DNA of 64,000 nt from Paramacrobiotus metropolitanus (taxonomy: Eukaryota > Tardigrada > Eutardigrada > Parachela > Macrobiotidae): positions 610,033 through 674,032 of the forward strand of contig NW_026570297.1 in NCBI RefSeq assembly GCF_019649055.1. The letters are read 5' to 3'. Shown in pieces: positions 304 to 21,372 of this stretch. Position numbers and translations under genes: made by a program. Positions within the stretch are counted from its first letter, which is position 1; each line of letters starts with the position of its first letter. The notes below the pieces were generated by a model that did not search any database, was not told the origin of the DNA, and worked only from the letters and a program-made list of their open reading frames with translations.

Positions 304-2308
304 ATGTTTAAAAACGATATTGGGCGTTATGGTGTCGTGGACGTGATGGGCGACAGCGGATTCGTTCGTCATGGAGTCATTGTGGACCTAGTGGAGGATG
401 GAGGGGATTTGGTTGTCGACTTCGACCATCCTAACCATCATGCTGACCGCATCCCCACTAGCAGTTCCTTAGCGCCTGCGAGACCAAGATACAGACTAGA
501 CAAAGCACAAATTGACATTGTAATCCTTATTCAATTAAGCCGAGACCAGCCGTGGTGCTGGTATCCTGGAAAGATTGTAGTCCCAGTCTCTGATTGCGAT
601 AAATTCGGTACTCACAACCATGCTCTGGTGGAAATTCACATCAATGGGAACCGTGTGCGGGAATTTGTTAATTGCAATGATGTTGAAGCTGCTCGTGGCT
701 GGATTCCTTTGGCTGATGAACAAGGTCCTTATTTTCGCAAGCATCTTACGAATTTTGCTTACGAGCCAGCTTCACTGGAAGAAATTCATCAGCCAGAATT
801 TCGAGATATTTGGAATCGTGTGACGAAATCTGCCCTAGTTCGTGCCGATTTGGTGGATGGTGGGCTGAGGGTTGTTTATATTTCGCTGGCGGAGCAACCT
901 ATGGAGGCGGCAGAAGGCGTACGTTCCCTATTTGTAGTGCATACAGCATACTGTGAATTTGCTAGCTTTCTATTTTTGTAATTTGGGTATGGGCAAATGC
1001 TTTTATTAATTAATCAATCTATAGAATTTTTAATCAGTCAGCCTTACTGGTTAAAAAAGTTGATGGTACATGTATTTGTATGTACTGAAGCTAACAAAAC
1101 AGTACCATCAGTTCTCAAATCGCGACTTTTATAAAGGGTTAAATTCACTAATACTGTGAACAACTACAGCAGAAGCATAATGAAGAACAACTCCAGTTAT
1201 TCTTGAACAATTATGATGCTAAACTGCTAGAGTAGTAGATGTACATTGTGCAAATACTGCAATGGTGCTACATGTGAGCAATGAGCATTACTAGGATCGG
1301 CTAGGTAGAAGTGTTCTGATAGTTCACACTTAATACTGTTTCCTGCTTCAGCTCCCGACGCTCGCTCGAATAGAGCGGGAACTGATGAACTATCGTAAAA
1401 AACGAGAAAAACGCGAGAAGAAGCTGGGTAACGTGAGTACAAAGCGGACCGATAGTGATCGTGATATTGGAGTTACGAAGCCAGGAACTGAAGCAAAACG
1501 AATTAAAACGGACGCATCGAAAAGCCGGGCGTTACCGGATACCTGTTCTGTTGTGGCTTTGAAGAGCAGCGCTACCATAAACTTGACAAAGCAACCGGTA
1601 AGACCCATCTAAAATCACCGCGTGTTTAACTTCGTACTGGACGAATTTTTATTTCTACTAAAGGCGATAGCTCGAGGATACGGGAAAAGGGGTATGCCCT
1701 GGTCCCATGTGCCTCCAGAACTTGTCTTCGAGACATTATCCTATCTGCCAATGAACAAGCGAATGCGATTGCGCCGGGTGTGTTGCACCTGGGCCACCAT
1801 ACTTCCAACTGCTTTTGCACATTTCTTCATCGAAGTGGATCCTGACGCATCCTGCCCGCTGGCCAGATTAGCCATGACACTGCATAAGACCGTGCGGGCG
1901 AGCACGAAAGTGTTGCTCATCACGCCTCCTGCAAAACTCCGACGGAACGGTGAATATTCTTTGAACATCGTACGCACTTTAGCGGAAATGCTCGCTGGCA
2001 TGCGGATCCGCGTGCCAGTTATTATTCTGGCACACGTACCCGCCGATTATTGGGATCTGCTGTTGACCATCGCCAGGAGCGCGTTTGATCCGCTGCCTTG
2101 GCGCACGGTCTGCCAGAAGCTGTTGCTGATAGAGGTCAAGGTGGCCACATTGTTGTGGGAAAAGTCCACGGAAGCTTCCAGACAAGAGGTGCTCGATAAA
2201 CTGCAAGCTTTCCATCAGTTGACGGAAATTCGTTGGTTGTGGCCGTATAACGCTTTTCTGCACGTGGTCAAAAGTTCGATGTACACAACTCCAATCGCAC
2301 TCCAATAG
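304..2308 (+). CDS. FMRP-N-terminal-module / F-box fusion protein, copy 1
   Basis: Three exons in phase 0: 304-918, 1352-1597 and 1664-2308, giving about 501 residues. Exon 1 starts at the family ATG (MFKNDIGRYGVVDV). It holds a first Agenet/Tudor-like unit (YGVVDV through DLVVDFDHPNHHADRIP), a second unit marked by PWCWYPGKIVV, and a KH0-like helix/strand region (residues ~155-205). Exon 2 is Lys/Arg rich (NYRKKREKREKK) and probably nuclear targeting. Exon 3 has an F-box (VPPELVFETLSYLP...RRVCCTWATIL) and a C-terminal region I cannot assign. FMRP Agenet pairs bind methyl-lysine peptides and partner proteins, and F-box proteins bring substrates to SCF ubiquitin ligases. A combined role as a substrate receptor is inference. 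This copy diverges from copies 2-4 in the second Agenet unit and in exon 2. Confidence 0.75.
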
Positions 2309-3791
2309 GATTTTGCATTTACCGCGACATAAATTTTCTATCCAAATGCGCCAGTGTACATGTACACTGTTCCACTTTTGGCTTTCTACTTTTGTTTGCG
2401 CACAGGTTTTGTATAGAAGACCAATGTCGGTTTGACTCTCCTAGTCTTACTTTAAAGTAGATTGATCGTAATGTATCTGTACAACACGACTTCCAGGCTA
2501 ATACGGGATTTATACTGTACCTACCTATGCAGCAGAAAAGTTCTGTAGGTGGCCTTATATATTCTACGAGTAGGGCTTTACAAATGTACGAGTACAGGTT
2601 AACAGTGATGCCCGCGTATATTTCTGTCTGTTCTTACTATCTTCTTACTGTTTTTTTTCGCTCTCTTTTAAACTTTGTTGTACATATATATAGCCTGCGT
2701 AGGCGGTCCCAGTTTCTTTGATTTTGATTTTGTCTTCTGTTTTTTGCCAGTGGTCAGACGACTCAGATATGTTTCGTAAAAAAAACATTTTCGTGGCCAC
2801 AGCTGCCGTATAAAGTATGGTATAACGGTGCGCTCCTGCAGTTAACGCCCAGTTTGTGGTGGATCTGAAGGCTACAGGATTATTTTCTATCTGAGTAGTG
2901 GGTATGTCCGGTTGCGTACCACGGGTCACCCGTGCCAGGTTATGTACGGCGGCAAGTATATCGACACGTAACGATAACTTAATTGAAATTTTTAATCTGA
3001 TCGCATCGTACTGCAGCAAAGCTAACAATAATTATTAGTAATTTGCATGTTTCGACTGCCAGGTGCTGTTGACCGTACCAATAGGTCCTCATCATTAGTC
3101 GTACGTGTAGGACAGCAAGGCATACGTACGGACTGTGGACCGATACGGTAATTCATTTCTGGGTGGGTATAGACTGTAGACACGGGTAAGAACAAACGTC
3201 GCCGGCCTATTTAACCAATACTTTCCATGCATCAATCTGAATTCCCCTTCCAAGCCATCTACAAGTCATTACAGCAACAACTAAGTATCATTTTCCTTCG
3301 AGTTGTATGGAAAAAACGTTTTGTTGAAAACCGAAATTCATCATGATAACAGCGACTAGCGTATCGTGCACCCAGCCAACTTCCGCGCTGTATCTGTAGT
3401 ATCAACTATCAACCAATCTGCAAGTTTCAATACTTCAAAAAATTTATCCTAGAAGTATGCAGTATGCACTACCCCGAGTAGCATACCCATAGTGAAATTT
3501 GCATTTTGCAAGAGAATCACAACGATCAACGATGTCATTCAATGCGGTTGTTAAAGAACGCCGAAGTCCGCACGTCTGCGTTAATTACTGCATAAGTAAT
3601 ATAAATTCGTATGTACGAGCACTTCCGGTACTGCGACACCCGCGTAGAGGTGGTTTACTTTAGCTGCGCAAGCAAAGAATGAAATACTCGTCCTATCGCC
3701 TTTCGTTCTGGTTTTGCCTTTTGATATTCAAGTCATCTGTATAAATACAATTTGATGGCGTCGTTTGTTTTACACCCATCAAACTCTGAAT
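2309..3791. other. Intergenic spacer with diverged duplicated 5' DNA
   Basis: No gene is seen. From about 3190 onward the DNA resembles 6840-7100 and the region upstream of copy 3 (shared phrases such as GTGCACCCA...CAACT and TATGGA-AAA). This indicates that gene units were duplicated together with their upstream sequence. Confidence 0.5.
3621..3655 (+). promoter_or_regulatory. Conserved ACTTCCGGT upstream element, copy 2
   Basis: ACTTCCGGT followed by CTGCGACACCCGCGTAGAGG lies about 170 bases before the start of copy 2. Nearly the same block precedes copies 3 and 4. ACTTCCGG is the core bound by ETS-family factors, so that identity is inference from the motif. Confidence 0.45.
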
Positions 3792-5788
3792 ATGTTTAAA
3801 AAAGACGTTTGGCGTTACGGTGTCGTGGACGTCCGGGACAACAATGGAATAATTATTAGTCATGGCATGGTAATTGATTTAGTTGACGACGGTGGCGATT
3901 TGATTGTGGACTTCGGGTACACTGGCCATCATGCTGATCGCATCCCACTGAGCCGTTGCGTCGCATTTACCAATGACGACTACTTTCGTGCTGGTGTCAG
4001 TGTGCAGCTTTTAAATCAACAAAGTCCCGATCGGCCGTGGTGTTGGTATCCTGCTAAAGCCCTCGCCCGGGTGACCGATCGCGGAGCGCATAAGTACAGT
4101 TACGTCCTGGTGGAGATGGACGTCAATGGACAGCGCACTCTGGCGTTTGTGAATTACGATCGCATCCGAGTGCCAAGGGAAATGTGTTCCCTGGCGGAGA
4201 AGGTGCTGATAAGCATTGAACGAGGACAGTTCTACGATAAGTTTCCCATCAGACAATTGTGTTTTCTTAAGCGGCGCGTCGAGTTAGGGTGGTTTCCCGA
4301 CGTGTTAGCCATGGCGGGGAAACGGGGATTTCGAGAAATGTGGAATCATTTAACACGCACCATCTTTGCCCATATCGAAGTGCAGGCGCACGAGATAACT
4401 TTGCATTATATTTGTGCGTCGAAGCGCAATCGTATCATGGACGCAGCGAAATGTGTAAGGGTTTGTTTGCTGTTAATCTGTGGCATATTTGGCGCATATA
4501 TGCATACAGCCACAGGTGGTTGGTTATAGGTGGGCGACCACTGGGCGCATTTAAATAGCTTGTCATCGCCAATTCCCAAAGGCCGTTACCAGAAAACATA
4601 AACACATACCATGATACTTATAACTTATGCAGTTGTTTTAAGAAAAAATAAGCAGTTTTTTTTACAGAAAGAGCATCTGGGTCGCATAAATTCCTTAGTG
4701 GATTCACACCACAGGAAACGAGAGATTCTAATTGAAGGATACTACAAAATCCCAAAGCGACGTAAACAGCAGAAACTGAGTGTGAGTGGTGATTCTCTCC
4801 GTGTCAAACGCCGCCGTCAGAGCGCGCAATCCCTCAAATGCAAGGTATAAATGCGCATTTTTTGTTGCAAACTTGCAGTCGGATGTAGGTATAGGCATGA
4901 TAATCTTAGTTTTTAATTTTTCTTATTTGATGGGTTGATATCGCGATCCACATGCAAGATCGCGATTACACGTAAATCTTTATGACTTGTGAGTGCAATG
5001 AGATGCTACGAGTGTACTTTTAAGGCGTCGTCAAGCGCACCTTTATAAGTCTCCAAATCCAGTACCGCCGTTTACCAAGAGGTACTAGAGCTCGCTCGGT
5101 TAAAATGTTGTAATAAACAACCACCCGCAGGCCGAAGGTATTGCTTACGTATTTTAATCTCTGCGTTTAGGGACTCGGCTCTGAGTCTATCCTCCTGTCT
5201 TATCTGCCGTTGGAAGTTTTAACGGAAACCTTGTCGTATCTCACTGTGGAAAGAAAAGCGATGTACCGACGCGTCTGTCGAGACTGGGATGCACTTATCG
5301 TTCATTCGCGATCTGCTCTGATTCAGCTGGATCCGTTGTCGAAGCACCTTCAAACCACACTGGCATGGATGCTATATGGAACAGCAATGACTTGGTCAAA
5401 TTCCATCCGATCACTGATATTTGCCGCTATCCATCCGGATCGCTGTTTTTTTGCCAGCCGTTATGTTATCCCCATCGTAAAGCAAATGTTGGCAGCGTTG
5501 CGGATGAAAGCGCAGATTGTTCTCCTAGCACATATTAAGGATGCTGATTATAGCGAATTTCTTCCACCGTACCAATCGGAAACTCCACCGCCGTGGTCCG
5601 CGATCTGTCGAAAGTTGCTCCTGGCGCATGTGGTGCTGGCCATTCCGCTGGACTACACCGAAGAAAATGTGGCTGCGGTTTTTCAAAGGTGTGGTAACAT
5701 GGATGGATCCTGGTTGAAGACGAAGGATGAATGGAGCTGCGATACATTGCGGATTAACCGAAGCACCATTTGTTCGACCAAGGAGTAG
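3792..5788 (+). CDS. FMRP-N-terminal-module / F-box fusion protein, copy 2
   Basis: Exons 3792-4454, 4668-4844 and 5171-5788, all phase 0, encode about 485 residues. Residues 1-60 form an Agenet-like unit (WRYGVVDVRDNNG...DLIVDFGYTGHHADRIP). Residues ~75-130 form a second one (DRPWCWYPAKALARV ... YVLVEMDVNGQ). Residues ~165-221 resemble FMRP KH0 (a helix FREMWNHLTRTIFAHIEV, then a strand, then KRNRIMDAAK). Exon 2 carries basic clusters (KIPKRRKQQK, VKRRR) typical of a nuclear signal. Exon 3 starts with the F-box LPLEVLTETLSYLTVERKAM then RRVCRDWDALI. The splice sites are clean (TGT|GTAAGG, ACAG|AAA, AAG|GTATAA, TTTAG|GGA). All three exons are open, so the gene looks functional. A role in SCF ubiquitination is inferred from the F-box only. 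Confidence 0.8.
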
Positions 5789-6713
5789 CGGAGCATGTGC
5801 GAGCCAGTGAGGGTATACAGACAATTTGAGACAATGACGTCCTGTACTATGACGTTCTTCGTATGGTAACGCTTGACCACTGTATAGAATGCCTGAGAAT
5901 GGACATTCAAGTTTCAAGTATTGCTACCAGTATGTTGAAAAACGAAGTCATGCACTCCAAAGGATTTTGCAAAACAACGTATTAGTAACTCAGCAATACG
6001 TTTTGTGGAATTGATTGTGGAAACTGGAATCGCCGCACCCACTTGTTACCTGCCACAGAAGGCAATTAGTTTATTAGCTCCCAGAAAGTCAATATGCTGC
6101 AGCATCTTGTGCAGTGTGCGTTATCAATGCAAAACAGTGTGCGTTATCACCTGTAAAACATACACATGTCAGGAATATATCATATCGGTGATCCGGTGGA
6201 CGCTGACACCATTTCTGGAGTGAAAAATAAAGACGAACCAATGACCGACGTTAATTTTTTATGCACCACGTGTTCCGTGCAGTACTACATTTACGAAAAA
6301 TGAAATTATTAACTTGTAAATTACTGTTACATACTTACATGTGATGATGTGCAGTACTTCGGCCACACTCAGAAGAATGTCCGATGCTTCTCTGTCAAAA
6401 TAAAATCAAAACGAATATAAATAGGGCATTTTAGTTACGCATCCGTGCTGCAACGTGACGGGGATGCCCAGTGTCCAGCTGATGCATTTCCGGGCGTGCT
6501 GCCACCGCCTGGGAGAGCGGTGCAACGGTTTTGTACGGTACTGCCAGCTCAGATTTGTCGTGTTTCAAAAATCATTAACTAAGAAAATTTTTTAGCCGCA
6601 TTTACCTTTTCGGTTATTTTGCCCTGTCGTTGTTTAGATTGCAGTTTTGTAACTTCTACCTGTTTTGTTACATGTTTCTTTTCTACTGGTAGTAAATCTT
6701 ATGCGTCATTTTG

Positions 6714-6777
6714 TGTTTAATAAAAGACGTTTGGCGATACGGCGTGAAAGATGAAGATGATGCGGGTACAATCTGGT
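6714..6777 (+). pseudogene. Relic first exon of the FMRP-module/F-box family
   Basis: After a TTTAATAAAAGACG start region the sequence reads KDVWRYGVKDEDDAGTIW and then stops. This matches the opening KDVWRYGVVDV of the intact copies. The family ATG is lost, the second half of the first Agenet unit is absent, and no basic or F-box exon follows before copy 3. It is a dead remnant of a seventh unit. Confidence 0.65.
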
Positions 6778-8049
6778 AAACCCTACTGTAACAGGCTAAC
6801 ACGACACTTACTTCGTCTGTGTACCTCTGCAAATCAAATTTTCAGTTCCCGTGCCGAACCATCTATGAGTCTTCTACAACATCTATTCCCATATCACCAG
6901 CTTTGAATTTTATGGAGAAAATCCTTTTTCAAAAACCTAATGTTACTTAATTATTACCAGTGGCGCCGCTGAGTGCACCCAACTCCCGTATTTACTCGTG
7001 GATACATTTACAGCATCAACCTTATAATTACTCGTATCAACTTTATAATTACTTGTAGCAGCTTGTACTCGTATTTATGCAGATGCTCAGATACAGTACA
7101 AAATTACAACGATAACAACGTTTTCAATTGCGGTGACTTCTGAACTCCAAAGTCCAGACGGCAGACGCCGAGTTTAATGCCGCTGAAACGCGTCTGCTTA
7201 AGGTTACCCCTATTTTGGCACTGTAATTAATGACCGGCCCGGCTTACCATTTGCATGCCTGCGTATATGCAAGCGATTAGATTTGGACATGCAGTCAAAT
7301 GAATGGAGACTGGAGAGCACCTGTTTGCGATTTGTATCTTTTGTTTTACTGGGTCATAAAACCGTAGCAAAATTGATGCAAACTCTGAAGACAAAAGACT
7401 TTGATCACACATGAGTGTAGCTGGGCAGCGCACAATCGGTTGTCTAGTTGGTCTTTCGGGCTATTCCTACGTGGTGTGTGTGGTGAACTGAGACTGCCAA
7501 CATCTTCAAATGAGATTTATCCCTGCATGAACTTTCGAATCCTACAGCTAAAAATGCGGTTAATAGGCTTTGAAAATTAACTAGTCACTAACGGAATAGA
7601 GTAGGATTTTGAAATTTTGACAGTGGATGTATGGATATCGTAAAAGTCTAATTGCGAGGGCGATTTTGAGAAAAGTTGGTTTTGCTCGAGTTATTGTCGA
7701 ATCAAGCAACCAACGAAGTGTTTTTTGCAAGTTGCAACTTTAAAATGGACTTTTTCCAAAAAAGCTCTCGCAAGGTGCTGGAGAATCGCGTTTTATATTT
7801 TACAGGCCGGTAACAAAAAATCTCAGTTCAATCTAGTCAGACTAGTTAATTTTTAAGCGGAATTACCAAATCTTGAATTTTAAAGTTTACTATTGAACCT
7901 ATGATACTGGTTACAGGGGTTGAATTTTTCATGATTTTAACTAAGAAACACTTTAGAATGGTCAAGACTGAGTTTCGAGTCGATATCGCAGGATCTCCAC
8001 ATTCGCGAACGGTAAAAGCCAAAATAGGGGTAACCTTAAATAGGCTCGT

Positions 8050-8084
8050 ACTTCCGGTTCTGCGACGCCCGCGTAGAGGTCGCA
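8050..8084 (+). promoter_or_regulatory. Conserved ACTTCCGGT upstream element, copy 3
   Basis: ACTTCCGGTTCTGCGACGCC then CGCGTAGAGG lies about 148 bases before the copy 3 start. It differs from the copy 2 block at only a few positions, while much of the flanking spacer has drifted. Confidence 0.45.
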
Positions 8085-8197
8085 TTTGGCTAAACCGCTA
8101 ACGATGTATCGCGTTCGTTTTGGTTGTGCTTTGCAGCTGATTTACATAAATAAAATCTGATTGCAGTTGTATTACGAAATCCCATCAATCTCCGAAT

Positions 8198-11100
8198 ATG
8201 TTTAAGAAGGACGTCTGGCGTTACGGCGTCGTGGACGTCCAGGACGATAATGGGCTGACTCACCATGGCATGGTAACTGACCTGGTTGAAGACGGTGGAG
8301 ATTTGATTGTGGATTTCGGATACACTGGCCACCGTACTGACCGTATCCCACTGAGCCGTTGTGTCGCATTCACCACTAACGACAATCATCGTGTTGGTGT
8401 TGGCGTGCAGTTTTTAGATCAGCGAAGTCCAAATCAATCGTGGTGTTGGTATCCTGCCAAGCTCCTGGTCCGGGTGAACGATATGTACTCCCACGCCCTG
8501 GTCGAAGTGGATGTCGATGGACAGCCCATGCTGGTGTTCGTGGGCTATGACAGAATCCGTGTGACAGAAGAAGTGCATTCCCTGACACAGAAAGCGGCGT
8601 TAGGCGCAGGCACACCACGTACGCGGTTCTATGACACCTTCCCTATTAGACATCTGTATTTTCACAAACGGCGCGTCGAGTTGGGCTGGTATCCTGACGT
8701 ACTGGCAGTGGCGGGCAGGAGCGGGTTTCGGGAAATGTGGAACCGCTTAACACACACCATGTTCGTTTGCATGGAAGTGCAGCCGCATACGCGTGAGATA
8801 TTCTTGCTTTATATTTCCGCATTGAAACGCAAACGTGCTCTGGACGCAGAGAAATGTGTAAGGGCGAATTTATATCAGAGTTTTTGGGACAGCGTCCGTT
8901 ATTGAACCTGGTTTTGGTCTATGCTACATGTAATTTGGGCAGCTTTTAGTGCCACCGAGAGCTAGTAAGATTGTCTTATGGAACTATTTATCATTTTATC
9001 TATAGATAGAAGTATATTTAGTAAAAGGCTTCGAGGCTACGTTGATGCAGTACAATCCTGTCAACGAAAAAAACGGCAAATTCGTGATTACTAATTGCAC
9101 GTGTCGTTTTGACTTTCTAACGTTCATTCCAAATATGCCCGTTTTGCCCATAATTCATGTGTTTAGGAACTGTAGAAATAAGTAGTTGTTTTGTAGAAAG
9201 AGCGCCTGCGCTGCGTAAAAACTTCCTTGGATTATTGTGACAGGAAACGAGAGATTCGAATTGAAGCAAGCCACAAAAACGAAAGGCGACCTAAGAGACC
9301 GAAACTGTCGACCGCCGACGCCGGAAATGATTCTGTACGTGTTAAGCGCCGCCGCCATAAAGCGCATTCTCTCAAGGTAAGGACGAATAATCAAAATTTT
9401 AATTTTTAAGGTGCAGTCAGGCTATGGGCTACTAGAAAATCGGTGTCGTAAAACTGTTACCCGACAATACAGTATTCGTACTGTAATGTCTGATAAGCGC
9501 TTCTGGTTTTTTATGCTTATAATATAGAGTATAATAATTACTAGCAACGACCGCGGCGCGTAGCGCCGCGGTATCCACCGAAGGTTGCGGTGCCGCCTAT
9601 ACTCTTGTATGGTTACTTACTGTCGCGTGGTAACGTTGCGCTGCTAACTTTCGCGTGCTTGCGTTATATCTCTTAGTCTCCCTTGGTTACGCTACGCCGC
9701 ACACTCTCTTGTGGTTACGTTAAGCCGCTCAATCCCTTGCGACTACTTTGCGCTGCTAACTCTCTTGTGGTTACGCTACGCCGCTCAATTCCTTGTGGTT
9801 ACTTTGCGCCGGTTGCTCTCGTGTGGTTACGTTACACTGCTCACTCTCTAACGGTTACTTTGCGCCGCTGGCTTTCTTATGGCTACGTTACGCCGTTCAA
9901 AATCTTGTGGTTACGTTACGCCGCTCACTTTCTTGGAGTTACTTTGCGCCGGTAGCTTTTGTGTGGTTACGCTACGCTGCTCACTCTCTAACGGTTACTT
10001 TGCGCCGCTGGCTTTCTTATGGCTACGTTACGCCGTTCAAAATCTTGTGGTTACATTACGCCGCTCAATTTCTTGTGGTTACTTTGCGCCGGTTGCTCCC
10101 TTGTGGTTACGTTACGTCACTTATTCTCCTGTGCTCACGTTACGCCGCTTACACTCTTGTGGTTACTTTGCGCCGCTTGAGCTCTTGTGGTTACGTTATG
10201 GCCCTCACTCCCCTGTGGTTCTGTTACGCCGCTGAATTTCTTGTGGTTACTTTGTGCCGGTTTCTTCCGTGTGGTTACGTTCCGCCACTTATTCTCCTGT
10301 GCTCACGTTACGCCCGCACTTTCTTGTGGTTACGCGACGCTGCTCATCCACTTGTGGTTACGTTACGCCGCTCCTCTTGTGGTTACAGTATGCCGCAAAC
10401 TTTCTCGTGGTTACTTTGCGCCGGTCACTCTCTTGTAGTAACGTTACGCTGCTCTATTTCTTGTGATTACTTTGCGCCGGTAACTTTCGTGTGGTTATGC
10501 TACGTCACTTGTTCTCCTGTGCTCCCGTTACGCCGCGCACACTCTTGTGGTTACGTAACGCTGCTCATTCTCATGTGGGTACTTTGCCCCGCTTACTTTG
10601 TTGTGGTTACGTTATGCCGCTCACTTTCTTGTGGTCACGTTACGCTGCTCAATTTTTTGTGGTTACTTTGCGCCGGTTACTCTCGTCTGGTTACGTTACG
10701 TCACTTACTTTCCTGTGCTTACGTTACGCCGCTTACTCTCGTGTAGTTGCTTCCTAAGCCGCTTGTTTAATTTATTTGAATTTTTTTGTTAATTTAATTT
10801 TAATTTGTTTAGGTTAGTTATTTTATTTAACTTATTTATTTTATTTATGTAATTTTAATTATTTTTATTAATTGCTATAGATCTAGTTAACTGAATTCAG
10901 TTGATAAGAAATTAATTACTTTTATTTTTCTATTTATTAAATTATTGATCAGTTAGTTATTTAATTAAGATATTTCGTTTTAATTTATTGTATTTAGTTT
11001 ATTTAGTGGGAAATTAATGAAATAATTTAGTTTAATTCAGTAAGATGTTCAGTAAGTTAGATTCTTTAGTAAGCTTAGTAAGTCCGTATAGTAGGTTTAA

Positions 11101-14100
11101 TTCGTTTAGTTAGTGTATTCAGCAGGTTTATTTTGTAATTTGTTTCAGCAAGTGGACTTTGTTTAGTAAGTGATTAAATAGGCTCAGATGTGTTTTAAGT
11201 TTGGTAGGTCGGTTTAGTAAATTTAGGTGGTTCAGTAAGCTTGTTCATCAAGTTCACTTGGTTTAGTGTGTTCAGCAAGTTCAGTTTGTTAAGTGAGGTT
11301 GTATAATATATTTCCGTTGGGTTCAGTTGGTTCACTAATATTAATGTTATGTTCAGTCGCTTTACCAACTCTTCGGCTGGGTTGAGTTGGTTCAATAGGG
11401 ATTGGGTCAGATTCATTTGGTTCAGCATGGTTTGGGTTTAGTCGGTTCAATAAGGTTTTGGTTGGGTTCAGTCGGTTCACTAACTTTTCGGTTGGTTTCA
11501 GTTGTTTCAGTAAGATTTTGGTTGGGTTCAGTCGGTTCAGTAAAATATTGGTTTGGTTCAGTCGGTTCACTAAGTTTTCGGGTGGTTTCAGTTGTTTCAG
11601 TAAGATTTTGGTTGGGTTCAGTCGGTTCAGTAAAATTTTGGTTGGGAAAGGTCGGTTCACTGACTTTTGGTTTGGTTCAGTCGGTTTGGTTGGGTTCTGT
11701 CGCTGTCGGTTCGCTGAAGCGGGTTTGGCTGGTTCAGAAAGGTTTTAATTGGGTTCAGTGAGTTCACTAACTTTACGGTTGGGTTCAGTTGGTTCAGTAA
11801 GGTTCTGGTTGGTCAGCCGGTTCACTAACGTTTTGGTCGGGTTCAGTTGGTTCAGTGAAGATTAGGTTGAGTTCGGCTGGTTCAGAAAGTTTTTAATTGG
11901 GTTCAGTCGGTTCATTAACTTTTCGGTTGGTTTCAGTTGGTTCACCAAGGTTTTGGTTGGTTTCAGCTGATTCATTTTGTTTAGTAAGTGTGTTCAGCAG
12001 GTTCAGTATAGTCTGTGAGTTTGTTCAGTATGTTCACTTTGGTTAGTAAGTAATTAGGTTGTGACCAATGAAAGCAATTTGGAGGCGGTCGCGTTACGAC
12101 TCCTGCCGCTTAATATGTAAGATTATTTAGAGACTTACCCACCAGTTATTATCATGGCGGTAGCATATTAGCAGCAGCAACAAAGTCAATAATTACAGTG
12201 ACATTGTACACGCTCATTGTTTTCCTGTAGTTGTGATTATTTTACTGTACTTTATTCGCACCTTGGCGGCCCCGTGGTTTAAAAGCCATATGATTTATCT
12301 CTTGCGAGTTTTGCGTAATGGTACGCGAGGAACACAGATTGCCGAGCTCCATGCCATGACCCTTCGCTCCTTATAATACCTGATTTGCGATAAGCAACCG
12401 GACTAGTACACATGCCAAGAAATCGCGAGCACAAGTCATAAAAAGTAATTAAAAATCAATTAAGACTGTGCTTACTAGGAACAGTCATGGTCACAGAGAG
12501 ACGGGCCCGACTACCAAAAGTGACAATCGGTAGGCCGCAAGTGCACATGCACATGCGAGAGGTAAAACGATGGATGAATCACAGGAGAAGGGAGAATTTG
12601 GTCTGCCCTGTGTCTGCCCGGGGCCGGTCCATCGCGCGTGCAGTTTTTCGCAAGGCGAAAGAGGCAAGCATTCCTTTCAAACGCATGACGCGGTGCCTCC
12701 GAGTCATGGTATCTATAGCATGGGTACTAGCCGCTTGCTTATCGCAAATTCCAAAATATGTACTGTACTACGCTACGAGCAGGATACACAGTATATGCTT
12801 TTCGCCCCACGGCCCGGTTTGTATGCAATCGGCTCTGTGGTCAAGCAGTCTTCGTGGGCTGACCGGCTGACCGAATGGGTGCCGGCAGGCTGGCAGACAG
12901 AATGCTCTCTGCGTAGCTTCAATGGTCATTTGCCTGTTGTACTGAACTTTGACGCGATAGTGGTTTCTAATTTATCAAGTCCAAGAAGATATTCCTGTTA
13001 TAGTGTACATTGTCGGCATCAAAGTGAACAGGAAGACAATTACTCGCGCTATCCGTTGCACTAATTTTTATCTCGATATGACGTCGCGTTCGTACGGAAT
13101 TTTGGTTTAAAATTTTGTTTTTGATAGTTCTACAGCGTTTTTTTCGAATTTTTGAAAACCCTCCCAGCAACGGATAGTCGACATCAAGATCTATCATAAG
13201 GCGATGTATCGTCCTAAACGGGTGAATAGTGAATATTTTTACCGGGGTCGAAGCAGAAAATTAATTTCCTCATTATTTTGTTAATGACCGCACAAAACTT
13301 TATAAAAAAATTCTCAGATGTTAGCACAACATCTTGGTGGCATACGGCAATAGTCAAGTTAACCGCACATTAACCACCGAGTGCACACTAAAAATTAGCG
13401 CAAGGGGACCATATGTTGGGTACCCCTCGTCTTAAGCACGTAGTACATACAAGTATTAAACGCGATTAAGAAAATAATCAGTCACCCGCTTTGTACATGT
13501 GTATTGTACCGGCACCAGACCACGCAGATCAAATTAAACCATCAAACGCTTATGAATTCTCGCTAACGGCTAAAAGGTCAATGTGGATCCGTTGGGTTTT
13601 TTACAAGATATTGATTGTATTAGGGACTGGTTTCCGAAGAGGCGAGCGATGAAGCAACTCAGTTGTGGTATCTGCCACCGGAAGTTCTTTCCGAAGCATT
13701 GTCGTACCTCGTTGTAGAACGAAAAGGCATCTGCCGACGAGTATGTCGAGACTGGAATGCGCTGGTAGTCCATTCACCGTCAAGCCTACTACTTGAAATC
13801 GACCAGGGGTCTACCCACATTCGGACAACAGTGGCATGGATGTTGTATGGAGTAGCGAAGACTTGGTCAGCTTCCGGTTCCAGGAACTCCAACCAAACGC
13901 TGATAGTTTCCGTCCCACAGCAGCACCGCGACCGGATTTCTGAGCGTGCGGTGGTTAACGTCATACACGAAATGCTAACAGCGTTGCGGATGAAGTTGCA
14001 CATAATTCTTCTGTCACACTTAAAGGAAGCCCATTATCACGATTTTCTGCCACCATTTCAGTCCGAACAACAATCGCCGTGGTTCGCGGTCTGTAGGAAG

Positions 14101-14271
14101 TTGATGCTGGTGGAAGTGGTGCTGGACAAACCGTACGATTATACCAGAGCAGATGTGGTGAAGGGGTTTCGAAGCAGTGGCACTATGGATGGATTCTGGT
14201 TGCGAAATCCGTGGGACAATACTTTGCGGATTACCAAAAGCACATTATCGTTTACCTCGACCGGGGCGTAG
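8198..14271 (+). CDS. FMRP-N-terminal-module / F-box fusion protein, copy 3 (giant intron)
   Basis: Exons 8198-8857, 9197-9376 and 13624-14271, all phase 0, give about 495 residues. The domain order is the same as in copy 2: two Agenet-like units (the second marked QSWCWYPAKLLV), a KH0-like segment (FREMWNRLTHTMFVCMEV), a basic exon (KNERRPKRPKLS, VKRRRHK), and an F-box (YLPPEVLSEALSYLVVER then RRVCRDWNALV). The third exon lies 4247 bases after the second, against 66-547 bases in the other copies. The donor AAG|GTAAGG and acceptor ATTAG|GGACTG are in phase and match the sister genes, so I read one gene whose intron 2 was inflated by two minisatellites. An alternative is that exon 3 belongs to a broken separate unit. 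Confidence 0.7.
9615..10755. repeat. 28-base minisatellite, about 40 units
   Basis: Tandem array of a unit near 28 bases built on CTTGTGGTTACGTTACGCCG, with a common variant TTACTTTGCGCCG. The two types partly alternate. 28 is not a multiple of 3 and no unit contains a stop, so all three forward frames stay open for long stretches. The apparent proteins here (up to about 317 codons) are artefacts of the array. It lies inside intron 2 of family copy 3. Confidence 0.9.
11040..12060. repeat. GT-rich ~30-base minisatellite
   Basis: Imperfect tandem units of about 30 bases: TTTTGGTTGGGTTCAGTCGG then TTCACTAA, with a longer alternating period near 60 in the best-ordered part (11440-11660). The plus strand is strongly G/T-rich with few C. 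It is the second array inside intron 2 of copy 3 and fades into AT-rich DNA at its left edge. Confidence 0.85.
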
Positions 14272-15202
14272 TGGTGCACATTTCCAGAGGTCCTTCGCAG
14301 TAATCGACAATGACGTCCATCGTTTGGAACTTGGGTAGTACAGTGGTCGATAGAATAAAAATACGCTGGAATGCAGCGCTTGAGTTTTTTAGCATGGATA
14401 TCGCAAATAACGTTACGACATTATCAGAAACGTACATTTGGTTTCTGATACAATATCATTTTATGCGATTGATTACAGGACGTGTGGGATATTTAATGGA
14501 ACTCTAAAACGAATTTCATATACTGACGGTTAATTTACTGAATCGATTGTTTGCAAGGATATCGTTGAACATGTATTATTAACTTTTCTTATCGGGTTGT
14601 TATTAAATTTTCGTATTGTCTTGTAGACTGCCTGTTCAAGGAATAGTACGCTTTGCCGGTTATGTACAGCAAAACAAAAATAAGAGCATAAGCAGCGAAC
14701 CAATTTAATTACCACTGGCACTCAGCAAGGAAGATATGTCCAGGTAGTTAATTTGCGTATCATTTATGAAGTATGTCTTCGGAAGACCCATAAAACATAA
14801 ATCCATTGCACCACCGTACACCAGCACCAAAACGCCTGATTAAACTTCTGCACTCGTTGCTATAAATTGCAAAATAAGGAAGTACTTCCGGTTGTGCGAC
14901 ATCCGGATAAAGGCGGCAGTTTTCTGAACGGCTGCAAGACCACTTACTGTACTTGGCAGGGTAGTTGCTGACCACACGTGCACACAGGAGATGGACCACA
15001 GCATAATGTCGACAAAATTAATCACAACATGTACATACTCTACCCTCCGGGTAAGTACTGTACCAGCGTAGTGAATTATTATCCGTATAATTTGTTTACT
15101 ATGGTTCTAGTAGCGATACGAGTATGGCAGGTGCATAGTGAGAAATTTCTTGATTAAATTATGCTGATATCTTAGCATCCATAAGCCCGAAATTGGCGAA
15201 AT
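14272..15202. other. Spacer between copies 3 and 4
   Basis: No gene is seen. It contains the conserved upstream element of copy 4 near 14884. Confidence 0.5.
14884..14918 (+). promoter_or_regulatory. Conserved ACTTCCGGT upstream element, copy 4
   Basis: ACTTCCGGTTGTGCGACATC then CGGATAAAGGCGG is the most diverged of the three clear copies of this block. It lies about 320 bases before the copy 4 start. Confidence 0.4.
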
Positions 15203-17419
15203 ATGTTTAAAAAGGGCGTTTGGCGTTACGGCGTCGTGGACGTGAAAGACGAAAATGGGCTTATCCGCCACGGAATGATAGTCGATGTCGTTGAAGACGA
15301 TGGGGATTTAATTGTGGACTTCGGATACACTGGCCACCACGCTGATCGTATCCCACTGAGCAGTTGCGTCGCATTCACCAACGACGACCCCCGTCGTGTT
15401 GGTGTTTGCGTGCAGTTTTTAAGTCAGCGCAGCACCGATCAGCCGTGGTGTTGGTATCCTGCTAAAGTACTCTTCCGGATACACGATCCTTATATGTACA
15501 CCTACGTTCTAGTGGAGGTGGAATTCGATGGGCAGCCCACGCTGGCATTCGTTGATCATGACAGAATTCGCGTAACAGAAGCCGTGTGCTCCTTAGAACA
15601 GAAGGCGGTGCTGAGCGACGCCACACAACGAGCGGCATCGCAGTTCTGCGATAAATTCCCCATTGGGCAGCTGTATTTTCACAAGAAGCGCGTTGAATTA
15701 GGATGGTGCCCCGATGTGTTAGTCCTGGCAAAAAGGCGCGGGTTTCGGGATATGTGGAATCGTTTGACACACACTATGTTCGTCCGTATTGAAGTACAGC
15801 CAGGCATTATGATTCTGCATTATGCTTGTGCGTGGAAGCGCAGTCGTATAACTGATGCAGCGAGATGTGTAAGAGTTTCTTCGGTTTTGATTTCGTGTTT
15901 GCTGTGCAAACCTGCGTTCGCGTATGCGTGGCTAAACTCGGCAACTGTCATTACCAGGAATGCCTTGGCCTGCAATTCATCATGTGTTTGTGTTTGTAGT
16001 CCGATAAAAACTAAAAACGTTTTGTCTTTTAGAAGGAACGTCTGCGCCGCGCAGATTCTTTACTGGATTATCATGACAGGAAACGAGAAATTCGAATTGA
16101 AGCTTGCCACAAAAACGAGAAGCAACGTAAACGACAGAAACTGACTACCGATACCGGAAGCGGGTATTCCTGTGTCAAGCCCCGTCGTCTCAATGTACAC
16201 TCTCTTAAGGTAACTGCTGCATAAAATACGCGTCCTGATTTTCAGTCTGAGTTCGGATGTCGACACGAGAACATTCATTATATTATTTAATAAAGTATTC
16301 TTTGTGCGTACTGCGTACATCCAGTTAATGCTCTACCGCTTCTCTACAGAGATAGTATGCTACGGTACTACCATTTCCGTGAGAACTGAATAGGCTGTTC
16401 TTTTCCGCGCCAATCACCGGGTATCAAAAAGAATAATTATAATATTCATTATACAAACTGCAGTAATCCGATCCGTAGAACAAGGCGTGCCATAGAAAAA
16501 ACTCTAGTTATTATATTCATAGAAGAGCTCATAATCTGCATTTACAATTAGTGCATCACTGCATCGGCACCATGATGGCAGTGCTTATGCCAGCCATGAG
16601 ACTATAAGCTCTCTGCTATAAGTACGTACGCAGACCTAAGCAAAAATCATCGAACGGCTTGTGAATTTTTCCCATCCAGTTTGTCGACCTTCCAGTATTC
16701 TTGTGTTCAGACCCTTATCTTTGCAAACTTTTATTTTACGAGCCCGTTCTGTTTAGGGACTCGTTCCCGCAGACGCCAGTGAGGGAGCTACTCAACTATG
16801 GTATCTCCCGCTGGAAGTGCTATCGGAAATGTTGTCGTATCTCGTTGTAGAAAGAAAAGCAATGTGCCGACGCGTCTGTCGAGACTGGGATGCCCTGGTA
16901 ATCCATTCCCCGACTGTTCTCATTGAACTGGATCCGTTGGCAACCTACGTTGAGACCACACTGGCATGGATGTTGTATGGAACAGCGAAGACCAGGTCAT
17001 GTTCCATCCGATCCCTGACAGTTACCGTTACTCAACCGCACCGCTCTCGACGTCATCATGCCAGACGTAACCTAATACACATCACAGAGGACATGCTAAC
17101 AGTGCTGGGAATCCAACCGCAGATTATTCTTCTGTCATATATAAAGGATGCCGATTATCGCGATTTTCTGCCGCCATTCCAAGCAGAGCAACCACCGCCG
17201 TGGTGGCCGCTCTGTAAGAAGTTGCTGCTGGTGGAAGTGGAGCTGGCCATTCCGCGGAACTTTTCCAAAGATAATGTATTAAAGGGATTCCAAAGTTTTG
17301 GCGACATGGATGGATCCTGGTTGGCTGATATCGATGAGTGGGGCCGCAGTAAATTGCAGATTACCAGGAGCACCTTATTCACGGCCGGCGTGAAGCCTTG
17401 GCTGGAAAAGGGTCGATAA
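15203..17419 (+). CDS. FMRP-N-terminal-module / F-box fusion protein, copy 4
   Basis: Exons 15203-15868, 16033-16209 and 16757-17419, all phase 0, give about 501 residues. Exon 1: Agenet-like unit 1 (WRYGVVDVKDENG, DLIVDFGYTGHHADRIP), unit 2 (DQPWCWYPAKVLFRI), and a KH0-like region (FRDMWNRLTHTMFVRIEV ... KRSRITDAARC). Exon 2: basic (RKREIRIEACHKNEKQRKRQ). Exon 3: F-box (WYLPLEVLSEMLSYLVVERK then RRVCRDWDALV), followed by a region shared with copies 2 and 3 (a WMLYGTAKT motif, a second block ending MDGSWL). Reading frames are intact. Copies 2, 3 and 4 are closest to one another, which indicates recent duplication. Confidence 0.8.
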
Positions 17420-19334
17420 TAACGTCCCGCGATGGAAAGTTTCTTCCACTCGGTTTATATTTTTTGGTGAAGTCAAAAATGGAGCTCCATCGATCAGTAC
17501 GATGAAATTAACGTGTCGTATGTTTTCCAGAGTGGTTGTCCACCAGCTATATTTTTGTAATAATTTATCACTACAGTATTACTATTATAATGAATTATGC
17601 TCAAAATTGCTTGTACGTTTTTAAATTTTGGCTTTCAGATTTGGTTTTTTATACTTTATCTCTACATGTAGGTACAGTATTTAATGTACACTACATTATT
17701 TCAGCCAACGCTAGTTGGGTCTGTTGTTTTTTATGTAAAAATCAGTTTCCTGAATCGATATAGAAGCACTTGACTTACGAACTGTACTGAAAGAACTCAA
17801 ACTGATCGTCAGATACTGTATGTAATTTATCGTTAACAGCTTATAATAGTCTTGGCCTGCACAGCTACCGAACGGCCAATAAATCTAGAACTTTTCTGTA
17901 CCCCTTTTCTCGCTTTTTTCCCACTGTTTTTTCCTTGCCAAAGTATGAGTTTTTTTACTTGAACGCGGCGCTCTTAATTAGAGCTTGCCCATCGGGTAAT
18001 GGAGATTCATTATGGAAGCATATCTTCTGCATCTTCCTTTTTTTCCTGCAATTTGTGGAGCAGGCTGCTGGATATACGACGCCTCGCTGTTGGAATAACG
18101 GTCGACCGTTGGATATCTGGCCCACCATAAAGCAGAAGCATCTGGCTGTTTTCCCTACTTTGGACGTTAACAACATCCGGTAAGCCAAGACTCCTGGAGC
18201 TGGCATCATCCAGAAATTACACGCAGCATCGTTATCCACCTTTTGCGTTTTGCACACGACGCGGTGCCTCCATCCATGCTGCCGTGTGCCTCACATCGAG
18301 GAGGAGGGGCCTCTCATTCCATCAAAGACTGTGCAATTGCCATTCGCCATCGGCATTTGGAGTGGGCGGAGTTGTCCAATCAGCTTTTGCTACTTCATTC
18401 TTTTTAGGCCCCTTTGTGATGTGCAGGTCGGCTTGCCCTTTTTTGCGGCGCCAAAATGTTGCCTTGTTGTCAATTACGTAGCACTTTGTTTGATTGTTTT
18501 CTGAAATTGTGAACTACATGTACTGACGATCTTGAATTGTACCAACCACAGGACAATAAAGGCTGAGACACATTGTATCTATATGCCCTGTGTCACTGTC
18601 CACTGTCCAGATCGATACTTCCGGCCGAGCTCCTACCGCCCGAGAGCGCGGCATGAGATAGTTTGCTGCTGTCAGCTTGAGCTGTTCAGACGAGTGCACA
18701 ATAATACTGTGCAGAAGTGGCGTCTTACTTGATTTTATTCGTGATTTTACAGCCATTGCACCATCTGTGGACCCGGCTAACAGTGCTAGCCGCACTGTTA
18801 GCCAGTACGGCTAGCATAGCCGCCTATGGAGGATTTGTCATAGGCGGCTATGTTAACCGCAGGGGCTCCTAGTGCATTACCCTGAAGAAGAAACAGAGAA
18901 TCATTTATTTTGTCTAATGCTGTGTATTATTCTGCATTTTTCAAGACTATACATAAAAATTTAATGCAGGAATGAACAAAGTTATGAATTTTCAAAGATT
19001 TACGTTAAAACAGCCTGTGGCATGGGCCACCGCACGCGTGCTTCTGTTACGTTGTCACTTAACAACTGGAGGGTCCACAGATGGTGCAATGGCTGTAAAA
19101 TCACGAATAAAATCAAGTAAGACGCCACTTCTGCACAGTATTATTGTGCACTCTTCAGACTTCAGACGAATAACGAATTCAAAAATTCGTCTGCGACTCT
19201 GCACTGCAATACGTATCAATTTAGTAATTTACAACCCGTTTATTATTTTAAATTTTATTATTTTAAACTTGTTTGGTTTGTACTTGTCACTGGTTGGCTG
19301 TCATCGGAATTATTAAATCTTTTGTGACATTGTT
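17420..19334. other. Spacer upstream of copy 5 with inverted-repeat element
   Basis: It holds the inverted-repeat element at 18692-19153 and an ACTTCCGG core at 18617 like those upstream of copies 2-4. A small ORF at 17935-18180 has a hydrophobic leader-like stretch (FCIFLFFLQFVEQAAG) and ends at a good donor (CCG|GTAAGC), but I found no partner exon, so I do not call it a gene. Confidence 0.45.
18692..19153. repeat. Foldback element: 83-base perfect inverted repeat with hairpin spacer
   Basis: Bases 18692-18774 are the exact reverse complement of 19071-19153. The 296-base spacer opens with two more perfect hairpins: 18775-18786 with 18792-18803 (12-base stem) and 18815-18828 with 18839-18852 (14-base stem, 10-base loop). 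No transposase is seen. The form fits a non-autonomous foldback element or a palindrome made by template switching. Confidence 0.85.
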
Positions 19335-21372
19335 ATGTTTAAAAAAAGACGTCTGGCGGTACGGCGCCGTCGACGTGAAAGACGACGACGGAGTGGTTCG
19401 TCATGGAATGATTGTTGATCTGGTGGAGGATGGCGGTGACATCGTTGTGGATTTCGACTACCCTGGCCATCACGCTGACCGCGTTCCAATGAGCAGCTGC
19501 GTAGCAATCGCACAGACTAAAATTTCCCAATATCAAGCGGGGCTGCAGGCGCAAGTCCTGCTCCAGCATCGCCCCGACCAACCATGGCGCTGGTATCCCG
19601 ATTCTAGAATCCTGTTTGTCGTCCACGATGGCGTCTACAAATCGCAAGATGGTGCTATTCCCGCCCTGCATGCTCTTGTCGAAGTGCCCATCGATGGAGA
19701 GATTATTCGGCTGTTTACGGAATGTGGGAAGGTTAAATTGGCCATGGATTGGGTTCCCTTGACGGATAGATTCCAGAATAATGCAGGCAGGGAGGTGTTT
19801 TGTGATCAGTTTCCAAAAGATCTCCGTTTTGCCAAATACTGCATTACGCTGCCGAGCCATCCAGCAGTATTGGAGGTGCTACGGGAACAGGGTTTTCGGG
19901 GGAAATGGAATCGGTTGACCAAGTCGATACTGGTTCGCGCGGATGTGGTACAAGAACACCTCAGGTGTAAACCCAAATTTACCTATGTTTCCACGACGGA
20001 GCTTCAAATGGATAAACCAGAATTCGTAAGCTACTAGCGCAATCTCGCTTCTTTTTAAATCATTTCATTTATTTCACCACTTAATTTTTTGAAAAATAAT
20101 TTTAATTTCGATATAGTTTATTAAGATAATTTTAATTTTCACAAGTTTCCAGTGAGGAAAGTTGAACTTTCCACTCTGTATTAGTTATTCTTAATTATTG
20201 CATTATTTAGTAATTTTCCTGGTTAATTCATTGTCTTTTTTCTTACTGCTACAGAATGACTACGCACTAAACGTTTCCCATTATGTTTAAAAAATTCTGA
20301 AAAAATGTTCTTCATCCCCAGGAAAGGCTGTTTGCCTATGCCGAAAGCGGACAGACGTCTGCGAGAAAAAAGACACGGAACGGCGATAGTGTAGTAGTTG
20401 ATGCTCTCACTCCGTTTCAGGTACGTGTTATCGATTTGATTCTTCCTTCGTATAACATAACTGCGATTTGAAGGGATGATATTGTAAAATTTCTAATTTT
20501 TCTGTAAAGGTATATGGGTATTATCCTGAAGTCTTAATAACCTTATTTATCTGATGCACTGCAGCAACACATAATTCAAAAACTTCGTTCACTCCGTGTG
20601 CACTCATTTAATTTGCTAATTACAGATATATATCTGTATTATGCGCAGTACCTAAATAAAGAGGTATAAATCAATTATTGTTTTATCAGCTAAATCGCTG
20701 ATTTATTTGAATAATTAAGGGTGATATCATTTCCAGGATATGCTGGGACTTTCCCGTTTGCCTCCCGAACTTATATCCGAAATACTTTCCTACTGTGACG
20801 CCATTACGTGGGTAATGTGCCGTCAGGTTGATCGCAGCTGGGATGCGATCCTCAGTAATCGCCATTATTCAGTGGTTACCATCCGCACCAGTTCGCGGGT
20901 GTCCCGCCCGAAAATTCGTCTAGCCTTGTTAGTGTACCATACCGTTACGGTGTCCACCAGATGCCTGGTAATTTCCGCCCGGGACAATTTTTCGGTGCGC
21001 CTGGTGACGGATATGCTAGCGGCTTTGCAGATTAAAGTGCCGCTGATTGTTTTGGCGCGGATGACTGTTGGTTGGGGGGATCTTCTGATGGATGCGCTTT
21101 TGGTCAGCGCTTTGATCCGGGAGGGGAATCCGGTAGTGGACTGGTGCCGCGTCTGCGCAAAATTGGAACTGAGGAACGTGGATGTTATCATGCCGCCCAT
21201 GGGCGTGCTGGACATGGCGAAATGTACGATGCTGACGTATCTGCAGAAACATCATCAGATGCAAGGGATCCGGTTGCAGAAGAAGGAATATGTTTGTCTC
21301 AGTGTCGCGAAAAGCGTCATGGACACAGCCCTAATTTCTGGCGCGGCTGAAGCCGGTGTTCAGGTTATTTAA
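19273..21372 (+). CDS. FMRP-N-terminal-module / F-box fusion protein, copy 5 (shifted start)
   Basis: Exons end at 20025 (exon 1), 20322-20420 (exon 2) and 20737-21372 (exon 3), in phase 0 from the frame of the conserved domain. The family start ATGTTTAAAAAAGAC is present at 19335, but here the A run is 7 long instead of 6, so that ATG is out of frame with VWRYGAVDVKDDDG. The domain frame is open back to an ATG at 19273, which would add 21 non-conserved hydrophobic residues. Unit 1 (DIVVDFDYPGHHADRVP), unit 2 (DQPWRWYPDSRILFV) and the KH0-like helix (FRGKWNRLTKSILVRADV) are otherwise intact. Exon 2 is short and the F-box is LPPELISEILSYCDAITWVM then CRQVDRSWDAIL. Either the start moved, the copy is dying, or the homopolymer was misread. 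Confidence 0.65.

Follow-up and report, generated by a model that had tools for sequence, protein, structure and literature searches.

The array described here raises the question as to whether an FMRP-type N-terminal module and an F-box, encoded by successive open reading frames (ORFs), belong to one and the same protein and, if they do, which part of that protein would select substrates. An F-box is an adaptor marking proteins for destruction, and expanded F-box repertoires are known in nematodes and plants.

A tandem array and its amplification

ORF inspection combined with sequence comparison places five exon-1/F-box genes (G1-G5), all on the + strand, between positions 304 and 21372 of the window, i.e., the whole stretch of 64,000 nt analysed. 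Their mutually homologous exon-1 ORFs start at 304, 3792, 8198, 15203 and 19339, and the F-box ORFs found downstream on the same strand end at 2308, 5788, 14271, 17419 and 21372. The preliminary description had counted six genes in this interval; a sixth copy (G6) does exist but is divergent and lies outside it, at about 44482-46331. Exon 1 of the remaining five copies (G1, G2, G4-G6) is 28-68% identical to that of G3. In the following list, all features are on the + strand, all exon-1 donors are in phase 0, and each exon 2 comes from a search limited to phase-0 segments.

304..918, +: G1 exon 1, FMRP-NTD-like; donor GGC/GTACGT
1352..1597, +: G1 exon 2, basic, LPTLARIERELMNYRKKREKREKKLG...
1664..2308, +: G1 exon 3, F-box, C-terminal region and stop; Pfam F-box-like 2.9e-6 on 1688-2308, acceptor read
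3792..4454, +: G2 exon 1; donor TGT/GTAAGG
4668..4781, +: G2 exon 2, basic, KEHLGRINSLVDSHHRKREILIEGYYKIPKRRKQQKLS
5171..5788, +: G2 exon 3, F-box, no in-frame Met ahead of the F-box; Pfam 2e-4, under the curated cut-off
8198..8857, +: G3 exon 1; donor TGT/GTAAGG
9197..9376, +: G3 exon 2, basic, KERLRCVKTSLDYCDRKREIRIEASHKNERRPKRPKLS...
13624..14271, +: G3 exon 3, F-box, no in-frame Met ahead of the F-box; Pfam 5.8e-6
15203..15868, +: G4 exon 1; donor TGT/GTAAGA
16033..16209, +: G4 exon 2, basic, KERLRRADSLLDYHDRKREIRIEACHKNEKQRKRQKL...
16757..17419, +: G4 exon 3, F-box, no in-frame Met ahead of the F-box; Pfam 5e-5, just under the curated cut-off
19339..20025, +: G5 exon 1, no Met at the homologous start; donor TTC/GTAAGC
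20322..20390, +: G5 exon 2, weak candidate, ERLFAYAESGQTSARKKTRNGDS
20737..21372, +: G5 exon 3, F-box; Pfam 8.5e-6 on 20725-21372, acceptor read
44482..45105, +: G6 exon 1, divergent, start codon ambiguous; donor CTG/GTAAGA
45564..46331, +: G6 exon 3, divergent F-box, by sequence comparison

At the homologous start of G5, where the methionine is absent, the ORF reads ...LLCLKKDVWRYG; in G3, exons 1 and 3 are ~4.8 kb apart and the gap contains two short-period satellites. Stops were also seen within exon 1 of a copy on the same contig as the window (P584). A basic exon 2 common to all copies had been claimed; among phase-0 segments between AG and GT, it is clear in G1-G4 and weak in G5, but the same search found no separate exon 2 in G6.

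The joining of the two modules in one gene, also claimed at the outset, is supported indirectly by the phase-0 donors of all six copies, the frequent lack of a start codon before the F-box, correlated divergence and conserved order, splicing being inferred from the genomic sequence. A start codon is missing ahead of the F-box in 19 of 32 exon 3s (script count, with the row for L007 corrected by eye), a Met being present there in G1, L015 and L007, and a phase-0 AG with at least 9/15 pyrimidines was counted in 26/32, with the F-box missed in L007 and misplaced in G1 and L015. Exon-1 and exon-3 distances correlate across 31 genes (r 0.86; 0/5000 permutations) and across the 15 genes outside the cluster contig (r 0.80; 0/5000 permutations). 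When the best 150 of 997 candidate F-box matches plus 93 from one query were used for pairing, at least 69 of 297 exon-1 places were followed by a same-strand F-box no more than 4 kb away; the other placements within that distance were upstream on the same strand (24) and on the opposite strand (2 and 8). The pairing exceeds chance, since other contigs carry the two ORFs in this order as well.

The proposed amplification extends well beyond the window: a search of the genome locates exon 1 at no fewer than 297 places on at least 112 contigs, a figure that combines the best 149 of 154 matches of one query with the best 149 of 150 of a second, includes weaker matches (E up to 0.04), and follows the removal, from each of the two match lists, of one entry that was the second piece of a locus already counted. 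Exon-1/F-box genes number in the scores, and probably in the hundreds, across the genome.

Homology of the head and of the F-box

Pfam offered no credible family for the five exon 1s of G1-G5 (best E 0.074), and homology was therefore tested with profiles built from paralogues. The group A profile holds 23 exon 1s, six from the window and 17 from other loci (L013 and L019, with short ORFs, were omitted), and the profile of a second subfamily, group B, holds 20 (L011 included, L045 omitted). Searched with hmmsearch against 177,635 PDB sequences, group A ranks six FMRP/FXR1/FXR2 sequences on top (E 2.7e-10 to 4e-8), the first match after them standing at E 0.42; group B ranks the same six first (E 2.3e-5 to 1.6e-4), with the eggless Tudor close behind (E 2.1e-4). 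A distinct FXR gene is also present in the genome (L001) and, used as a query, retrieves those six sequences as well. Alignment of group A with FXR by hhalign (98.2%, E 4.8e-14, 168 columns) is co-linear over both Tudors and KH0, and its score was reached by 0/100 column shuffles; for each group A domain taken singly (Tudor 1, Tudor 2 or KH0), 0/200 shuffles scored as high. KH0 of group B compared directly with FXR gave no match above chance (90/200 shuffles as good) and is linked to FXR solely via group A (0/200 shuffles as good). Profile comparison thus places tandem Tudor (Agenet) domains in exon 1 of both groups and a KH0 domain in that of group A. On these comparisons, exon 1 is homologous to the Tudor1-Tudor2-KH0 amino terminus of FMRP/FXR, as had been proposed.

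Standard models see little of this: over all 43 exon 1s, the best Pfam match was Tudor_FRX1 (E 1.1e-4; 22.5 bits, under its cut-off of 25.9), and no KH family matched any of the 23 + 20 sequences at E <= 1. The AF2 model of exon 1 is poor (mean pLDDT 42.7), but its six Foldseek matches at E <= 0.001 are all FMRP NTDs. Because that model is poor, the TM is about 0.2 and Foldseek scoring mixes sequence and structure letters, the match counts only as consistent with the homology. At three further loci (L002-L004), Tudor 1 scores above the Tudor_FRX1 cut-off and no F-box was found within the 3.1 kb of sequence per locus; relatives without an F-box may thus exist.

The F-box assigned earlier to exon 3 is borne out by Pfam and PDB profile matches. 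At E <= 0.01, PF12937 (F-box-like) is matched by 30 of the 32 exon 3s and PF00646 by 28, F-box models being the only Pfam matches; no KH family is listed at this threshold, and the exon 3s run to a stop. Pfam contains FTH and FBA2 models, neither of which is listed for the 32 exon 3s at E <= 0.01. At E <= 10, the exon-3 profile retrieves 25 PDB sequences. Each is an F-box protein, either so named or, in the case of SKP2, the p19 entry, CDC4, KDM2A/B, DIA2 and an ankyrin-repeat protein, known as one. The AF2 model of exon 3 is weak (mean pLDDT 55.9) and shows, at this low confidence, strands and helices in the C-terminal region; Foldseek found no PDB match for it at E <= 0.001, and it provides no usable fold. 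Four Skp1 loci stand above cut-off in the genome.

A second subfamily lacking F-boxes was considered and rejected. In the first pairing, at least 8 of 149 group B places had an F-box within 6 kb; the group-A F-box profile, however, finds same-strand F-box stretches below 0.1 in 15 of 20 loci and at i-E < 0.01 in 11 of 20 (E-values computed for this small set of 20). Many of these stretches are split in two between separate ORFs, and the best opposite-strand value is 0.2. With this profile, L031, L034, L035, L038 and L040 gave nothing below 0.1.

Which part would read the substrate

Over 15 pairs, which share genes and often have dS near or above 1, and with region borders set by simple rules, pooled dN/dS is 0.14 for Tudor 1, 0.29 for Tudor 2, 0.26 for KH0, 0.14 for the F-box and 0.44 after the F-box. 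The C-terminal value is higher than that of Tudor 1 in 15/15 pairs, of the F-box in 14/15, and of Tudor 2 and KH0 in 13/15 each, one of the remaining two for KH0 being a tie. Since dN/dS exceeds 1 in no region, diversifying selection is not established; moreover, mean identity over 31 genes is lowest in the C-terminal region (0.245) with KH0 close to it (0.267), which weakens any sharp contrast between head and tail. Based on its dN/dS of 0.44, compared with 0.14-0.29 elsewhere, the stretch after the F-box appears to be a better candidate for substrate reading than the FMRP-like head.

At a probability of roughly 0.6, these genes would encode SCF receptors of a new architecture, the head docking on a common partner and the C-terminal tail selecting the substrate. 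Such a protein would begin with the Tudor1-Tudor2-KH0 unit of FMRP/FXR, continue through a short basic linker encoded by exon 2 into the F-box, and end in a C-terminal region of ~150 variable residues. The F-box would dock on Skp1/Cul1; the head, with its slow Tudor 1, would act as the shared docking unit, most likely for a single common partner, for example an FXR or mRNP component; and the fast-changing stretch after the F-box would choose the substrate of each receptor, in the manner suggested for nematodes with their expanded F-box families. A role in defence or gene regulation may follow.

Doubtful is the converse assignment, in which the head, as in the preliminary description, is the bait that captures the substrate, be it a methylated protein, an FMRP partner or an RNP, and what follows the F-box is a mere scaffold. 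The FMRP head binds proteins, and PMC5430443 describes partners sensitive to F32L and/or Y96L; F32 is Phe in 23/23 group A and 18/20 group B members, and Tudor 2 and KH0 are more variable than Tudor 1. Against this, the pooled dN/dS of every head part is below that of the C-terminal region, Tudor 1 being constrained like the F-box and Tudor 2/KH0 being intermediate. In addition, the position of Y96, a Tudor-2 pocket residue in FMRP, is aromatic in 0/23 group A and 3/20 group B members and is occupied by Ile in the FXR encoded by this genome. With this methyl-lysine pocket aromatic lacking throughout group A and in that FXR, the data do not favour methylated targets. The likeness between the KRxR motif closing exon 1 and the KRAHML helix is confined to some copies, the FMRP R180 position being Arg or Lys in 5/23 group A members.

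It is quite unlikely that the many copies are competitors or regulators of FXR/mRNP assembly rather than ligases, with the F-box kept for other contacts. The head is FXR-like, and FXR-SCF links exist, since human Fxr1 is a reported substrate of SCF(Fbxo4) (PMC5688124, in part); however, the F-box has a pooled dN/dS of 0.14, as low as any region, and the 32 exon 3s match F-box models only. Improbable, too, is that part of the family consists of selfish antidotes or arms-race by-products resembling the KSS F-box antidotes of C. tropicalis: tandem birth, clustering (148 of the 297 places among the matches listed, by a 30 kb rule) and this published precedent (PMC12680543, in part) speak for it, but the copy number seems, in our opinion, above the needs of such elements. 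Adjacent independent genes or pseudogenes are very improbable: G5 lacks a start Met, P584 has stops and exon joining is a prediction from the genome, but order is conserved on many contigs, donors are in phase 0, 19/32 F-boxes have no start codon before them, divergence is correlated and pooled dN/dS is below 1 in both exons.

Place among known systems

By comparison with the NTDs of FMRP, FXR1 and FXR2 (PDB 4QVZ, 4OVA, 3KUF, 3H8Z), the family proposed here as SCF receptors displays the same Tudor1-Tudor2-KH0 order in co-linear homology and keeps both F32 and W79 in 23/23 group A members, but does not retain Y96 in that group and continues into an F-box where FMRP/FXR1/FXR2 continue into KH1-KH2. 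The F-box-FTH and F-box-FBA2 families of Caenorhabditis, as presented in excerpts of PMC8665587, likewise expanded in tandem within particular lineages, certain species reaching hundreds of genes, and combine a conserved F-box with a faster C-terminal region; their F-box, however, sits at the N-terminus with FTH or FBA2 after it, whereas here an FMRP-like head precedes it. The C. tropicalis KSS antidotes are also clustered, fast-evolving F-box proteins whose recognition surface varies, but the excerpts of PMC12680543 mention no FMRP-like head. In the human Fbxo4-Fxr1 pair, an SCF ligase also meets the FMRP family, Fxr1 being a substrate in trans (PMC5688124, in part), while here the FMRP-like part and the F-box share a gene.

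No description of an FMRP head joined to an F-box was found in the literature searched, in line with the novelty claimed beforehand, and a large set of ubiquitin-ligase receptors with an FMRP-like head is apparently undescribed. As a tentative extension, which we regard as rather unlikely, the FMRP head might be a universal plug by which hundreds of different SCF receptors reach ribosomes or mRNPs; their variable C-termini would there read foreign or faulty nascent proteins in a repertoire-type, germline-encoded intracellular surveillance. The N-terminal module of this F-box repertoire is a homologue of the head of FMRP, an RNA-regulatory protein that has been studied extensively. Should the repertoire be confirmed, it would be a large family nearly invisible to standard models (best Pfam E 1.1e-4), its many FMRP-head variants would constitute a natural experiment separating structurally required residues from binding residues, and it would offer a new route for attaching ubiquitin ligases to RNPs.

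Identity of the head and the F-box exon

By sequence comparison, exon 1 is an FMRP head. With the six window copies as a profile, just six matches at E ≤ 10 came out of the 177,635 PDB sequences, all of them FMRP, FXR1 or FXR2 (E 0.06–0.11); a profile of 23 sequences (group A, the window copies and 17 from other loci) recovered the same six at 2.7e-10 to 4e-8, with the next match at 0.42. The profile of a second subfamily of 20 exon 1s (group B), located with a query from another locus (L005), again placed these six on top (E 2.3e-5 to 1.6e-4), and because an eggless Tudor follows directly at 2.1e-4, its specificity for FXR is modest. In profile–profile alignment, group A is co-linear with FXR through Tudor 1, Tudor 2 and the greater part of KH0 (columns 11–188 with FXR 5–182, E 4.8e-14), and no shuffle equalled the match of either whole group to FXR (0/100 each), while in the negative control, run with the F-box exon, the score stayed inside its null (5/50 shuffles as good). 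The FMRP-type exon 1 of the preliminary description holds for group A in Tudor 1, Tudor 2 and KH0 (each 0/200 shuffles as good), but not for group B KH0 compared with FXR directly, where nothing was detected (90/200); group B KH0 does match that of group A (0/200). Single members seldom match Pfam at E ≤ 1: Agenet in 3/23 and Tudor_FRX1 in 1/23 of group A, and Tudor_FRX1 in 2/20, Agenet in 1/20 and Tudor_4 in 3/20 of group B.

Exon 3 is, on profile matches, the F-box that it had been proposed to be, with PF12937 in 30 and PF00646 in 28 of 32 copies scanned. Its profile gave 25 PDB matches, F-box proteins by name or, as with SKP2 and CDC4, as commonly classified. The predicted model, of low confidence (mean pLDDT 55.9), alternates strands and helices past the F-box and matched no solved fold at E ≤ 0.001.

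Gene copies and exon junctions on the contig

The window lies at 610033–674032 of contig C77, in an assembly (G000) totalling 169.8 Mb. The tandem family proposed for the first third of the window is there, but with five genes instead of six, each an exon-1 ORF followed by an F-box ORF; a divergent sixth pair lies apart. Eleven further copies were read upstream on C77, six on the + strand and five on the − strand; the F-box exon is open in all eleven and exon 1 in ten, the exception being P584, which has either gained an intron or is decaying.

Features of the gene copies on contig C77
Window 304–21372, + strand: five tandem genes
Window about 44.5–46.3 kb: divergent sixth exon-1/F-box pair (G6)
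G000:C77:584091–584921: P584 (locus L048), in-frame stops and an extra stretch within exon 1
Window 9568–10815 and 11263–12004: short-period tandem arrays in a G3 intron, 28-nt and 30-nt units
Window 18686–18774 and 19071–19159: 89-nt inverted repeat, 98% complementary, arms 296 nt apart

The intron between exons 2 and 3 of the third gene copy (G3) is unusually long and contains both arrays. The inverted repeat, perhaps a small mobile element, lies directly upstream of G5, whose exon 1 is without the usual start methionine.

Exon 1 ends in a phase-0 GT donor in all six window copies, as read by eye. The basic exon 2, formerly ascribed to every gene of the family, is clearly flanked by AG and GT in G1–G4 and a weak candidate in G5, but none was found in G6 between exons 1 and 3; as the search admitted phase 0 only, it gives no independent evidence on the phase of exon 2. 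G2–G4 share text of the kind KE.L......D...DRKREI.IE, and the basic run resembles a nuclear localisation signal. An in-frame methionine ahead of the F-box is absent in 19 of 32 F-box exons (script count, with rows corrected by eye), and 26/32 have an AG in phase 0 preceded by a pyrimidine-rich stretch (by a script that misplaced the F-box in G1 and L015 and missed it in L007).

Amplification and pairing across the genome

Two merged searches found at least 297 exon-1 match places on 112 contigs, the weaker ones, at E up to 0.04, being putative; the number may be larger in truth because only the best 150 of about 490 candidates were scored in each. Of the 297, 148 fall in clusters under a 30 kb rule, and the sequences analysed were those of 40 loci and the C77 cluster. 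Set against 214 merged F-box places (the best 150 of 997 candidates, with 93 from one query), at least 69 of the 297 are followed within 4 kb by an F-box on their own strand. At least 24 have one upstream on the same strand, as expected since the arrays are tandem, and opposite-strand counts are at least 2 and at least 8. Same-strand F-box stretches occur in 11/20 loci of the second subfamily at i-E < 0.01 and in 15/20 below 0.1. Divergence between copies in exon 1 correlates strongly with that in exon 3 (r 0.86 over 31 genes), also outside C77 (r 0.80, 15 genes), and 0/5000 permutations reach the observed value in either case.

Tudor 1 exceeds the Tudor_FRX1 cut-off in the genome's own FXR gene (L001; G000:C5:3433812, open over at least 610 residues, no intron) and in three further loci, L002, L003 and L004, the last only with neighbours counted. 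These three, where no F-box was found within the 3.1 kb examined, may represent another, third type of gene with an FXR head. An apparent intron separates Tudor 1 from Tudor 2 in L002. Four Skp1 loci lie over the family cut-off (contigs C6, C3, C12 and C26), fewer than the 20 Skp1-related genes given for C. elegans in PMC12680543.

No description of the architecture had been known at first, and it is indeed absent among the matches listed for titles and abstracts on tardigrade F-box, on F-box with Tudor/Agenet/FMRP, and on tardigrade gene family expansion or FMR1; 'F-box' does not occur in the main text of a tardigrade comparative genomics paper (PMC5531438). Absence from the literature searched does not prove that no description has been published.

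The candidate target-reading region

The FMRP-like head had been proposed as the bait, a role against which two patterns argue. Pooled over 15 pairs of cluster copies, dN/dS is 0.14 for Tudor 1, 0.29 for Tudor 2, 0.26 for KH0 and 0.14 for the F-box, against 0.44 for the C-terminal region, which exceeds Tudor 1 in 15/15 pairs, the F-box in 14/15, and Tudor 2 and KH0 in 13/15 each; because genes recur across pairs and dS values are high, the contrast gives a direction and is not a test of positive selection. By mean identity over 31 genes (Tudor 1 0.53, Tudor 2 0.36, KH0 0.27, F-box 0.35, C-terminal region 0.25), KH0 varies almost as much as the C-terminal region. Conservation differs between the FMRP positions linked to the Tudor pockets: F32 is Phe in 23/23 of group A and 18/20 of group B, whereas Y96 is aromatic in 0/23 and 3/20, respectively, and Ile in the genome's own FXR. 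Both are putative Tudor pocket residues of FMRP in PMC5430443, and a Tudor-2 pocket of FXR1 is described in PMC2970552.

From the dN/dS contrast and the F32/Y96 pattern, the region past the F-box appears the better candidate for a variable target reader, and the FMRP-like head would be the unit common to the family. Such an arrangement would resemble that of the Caenorhabditis families as reported in PMC8665587 and PMC12680543.
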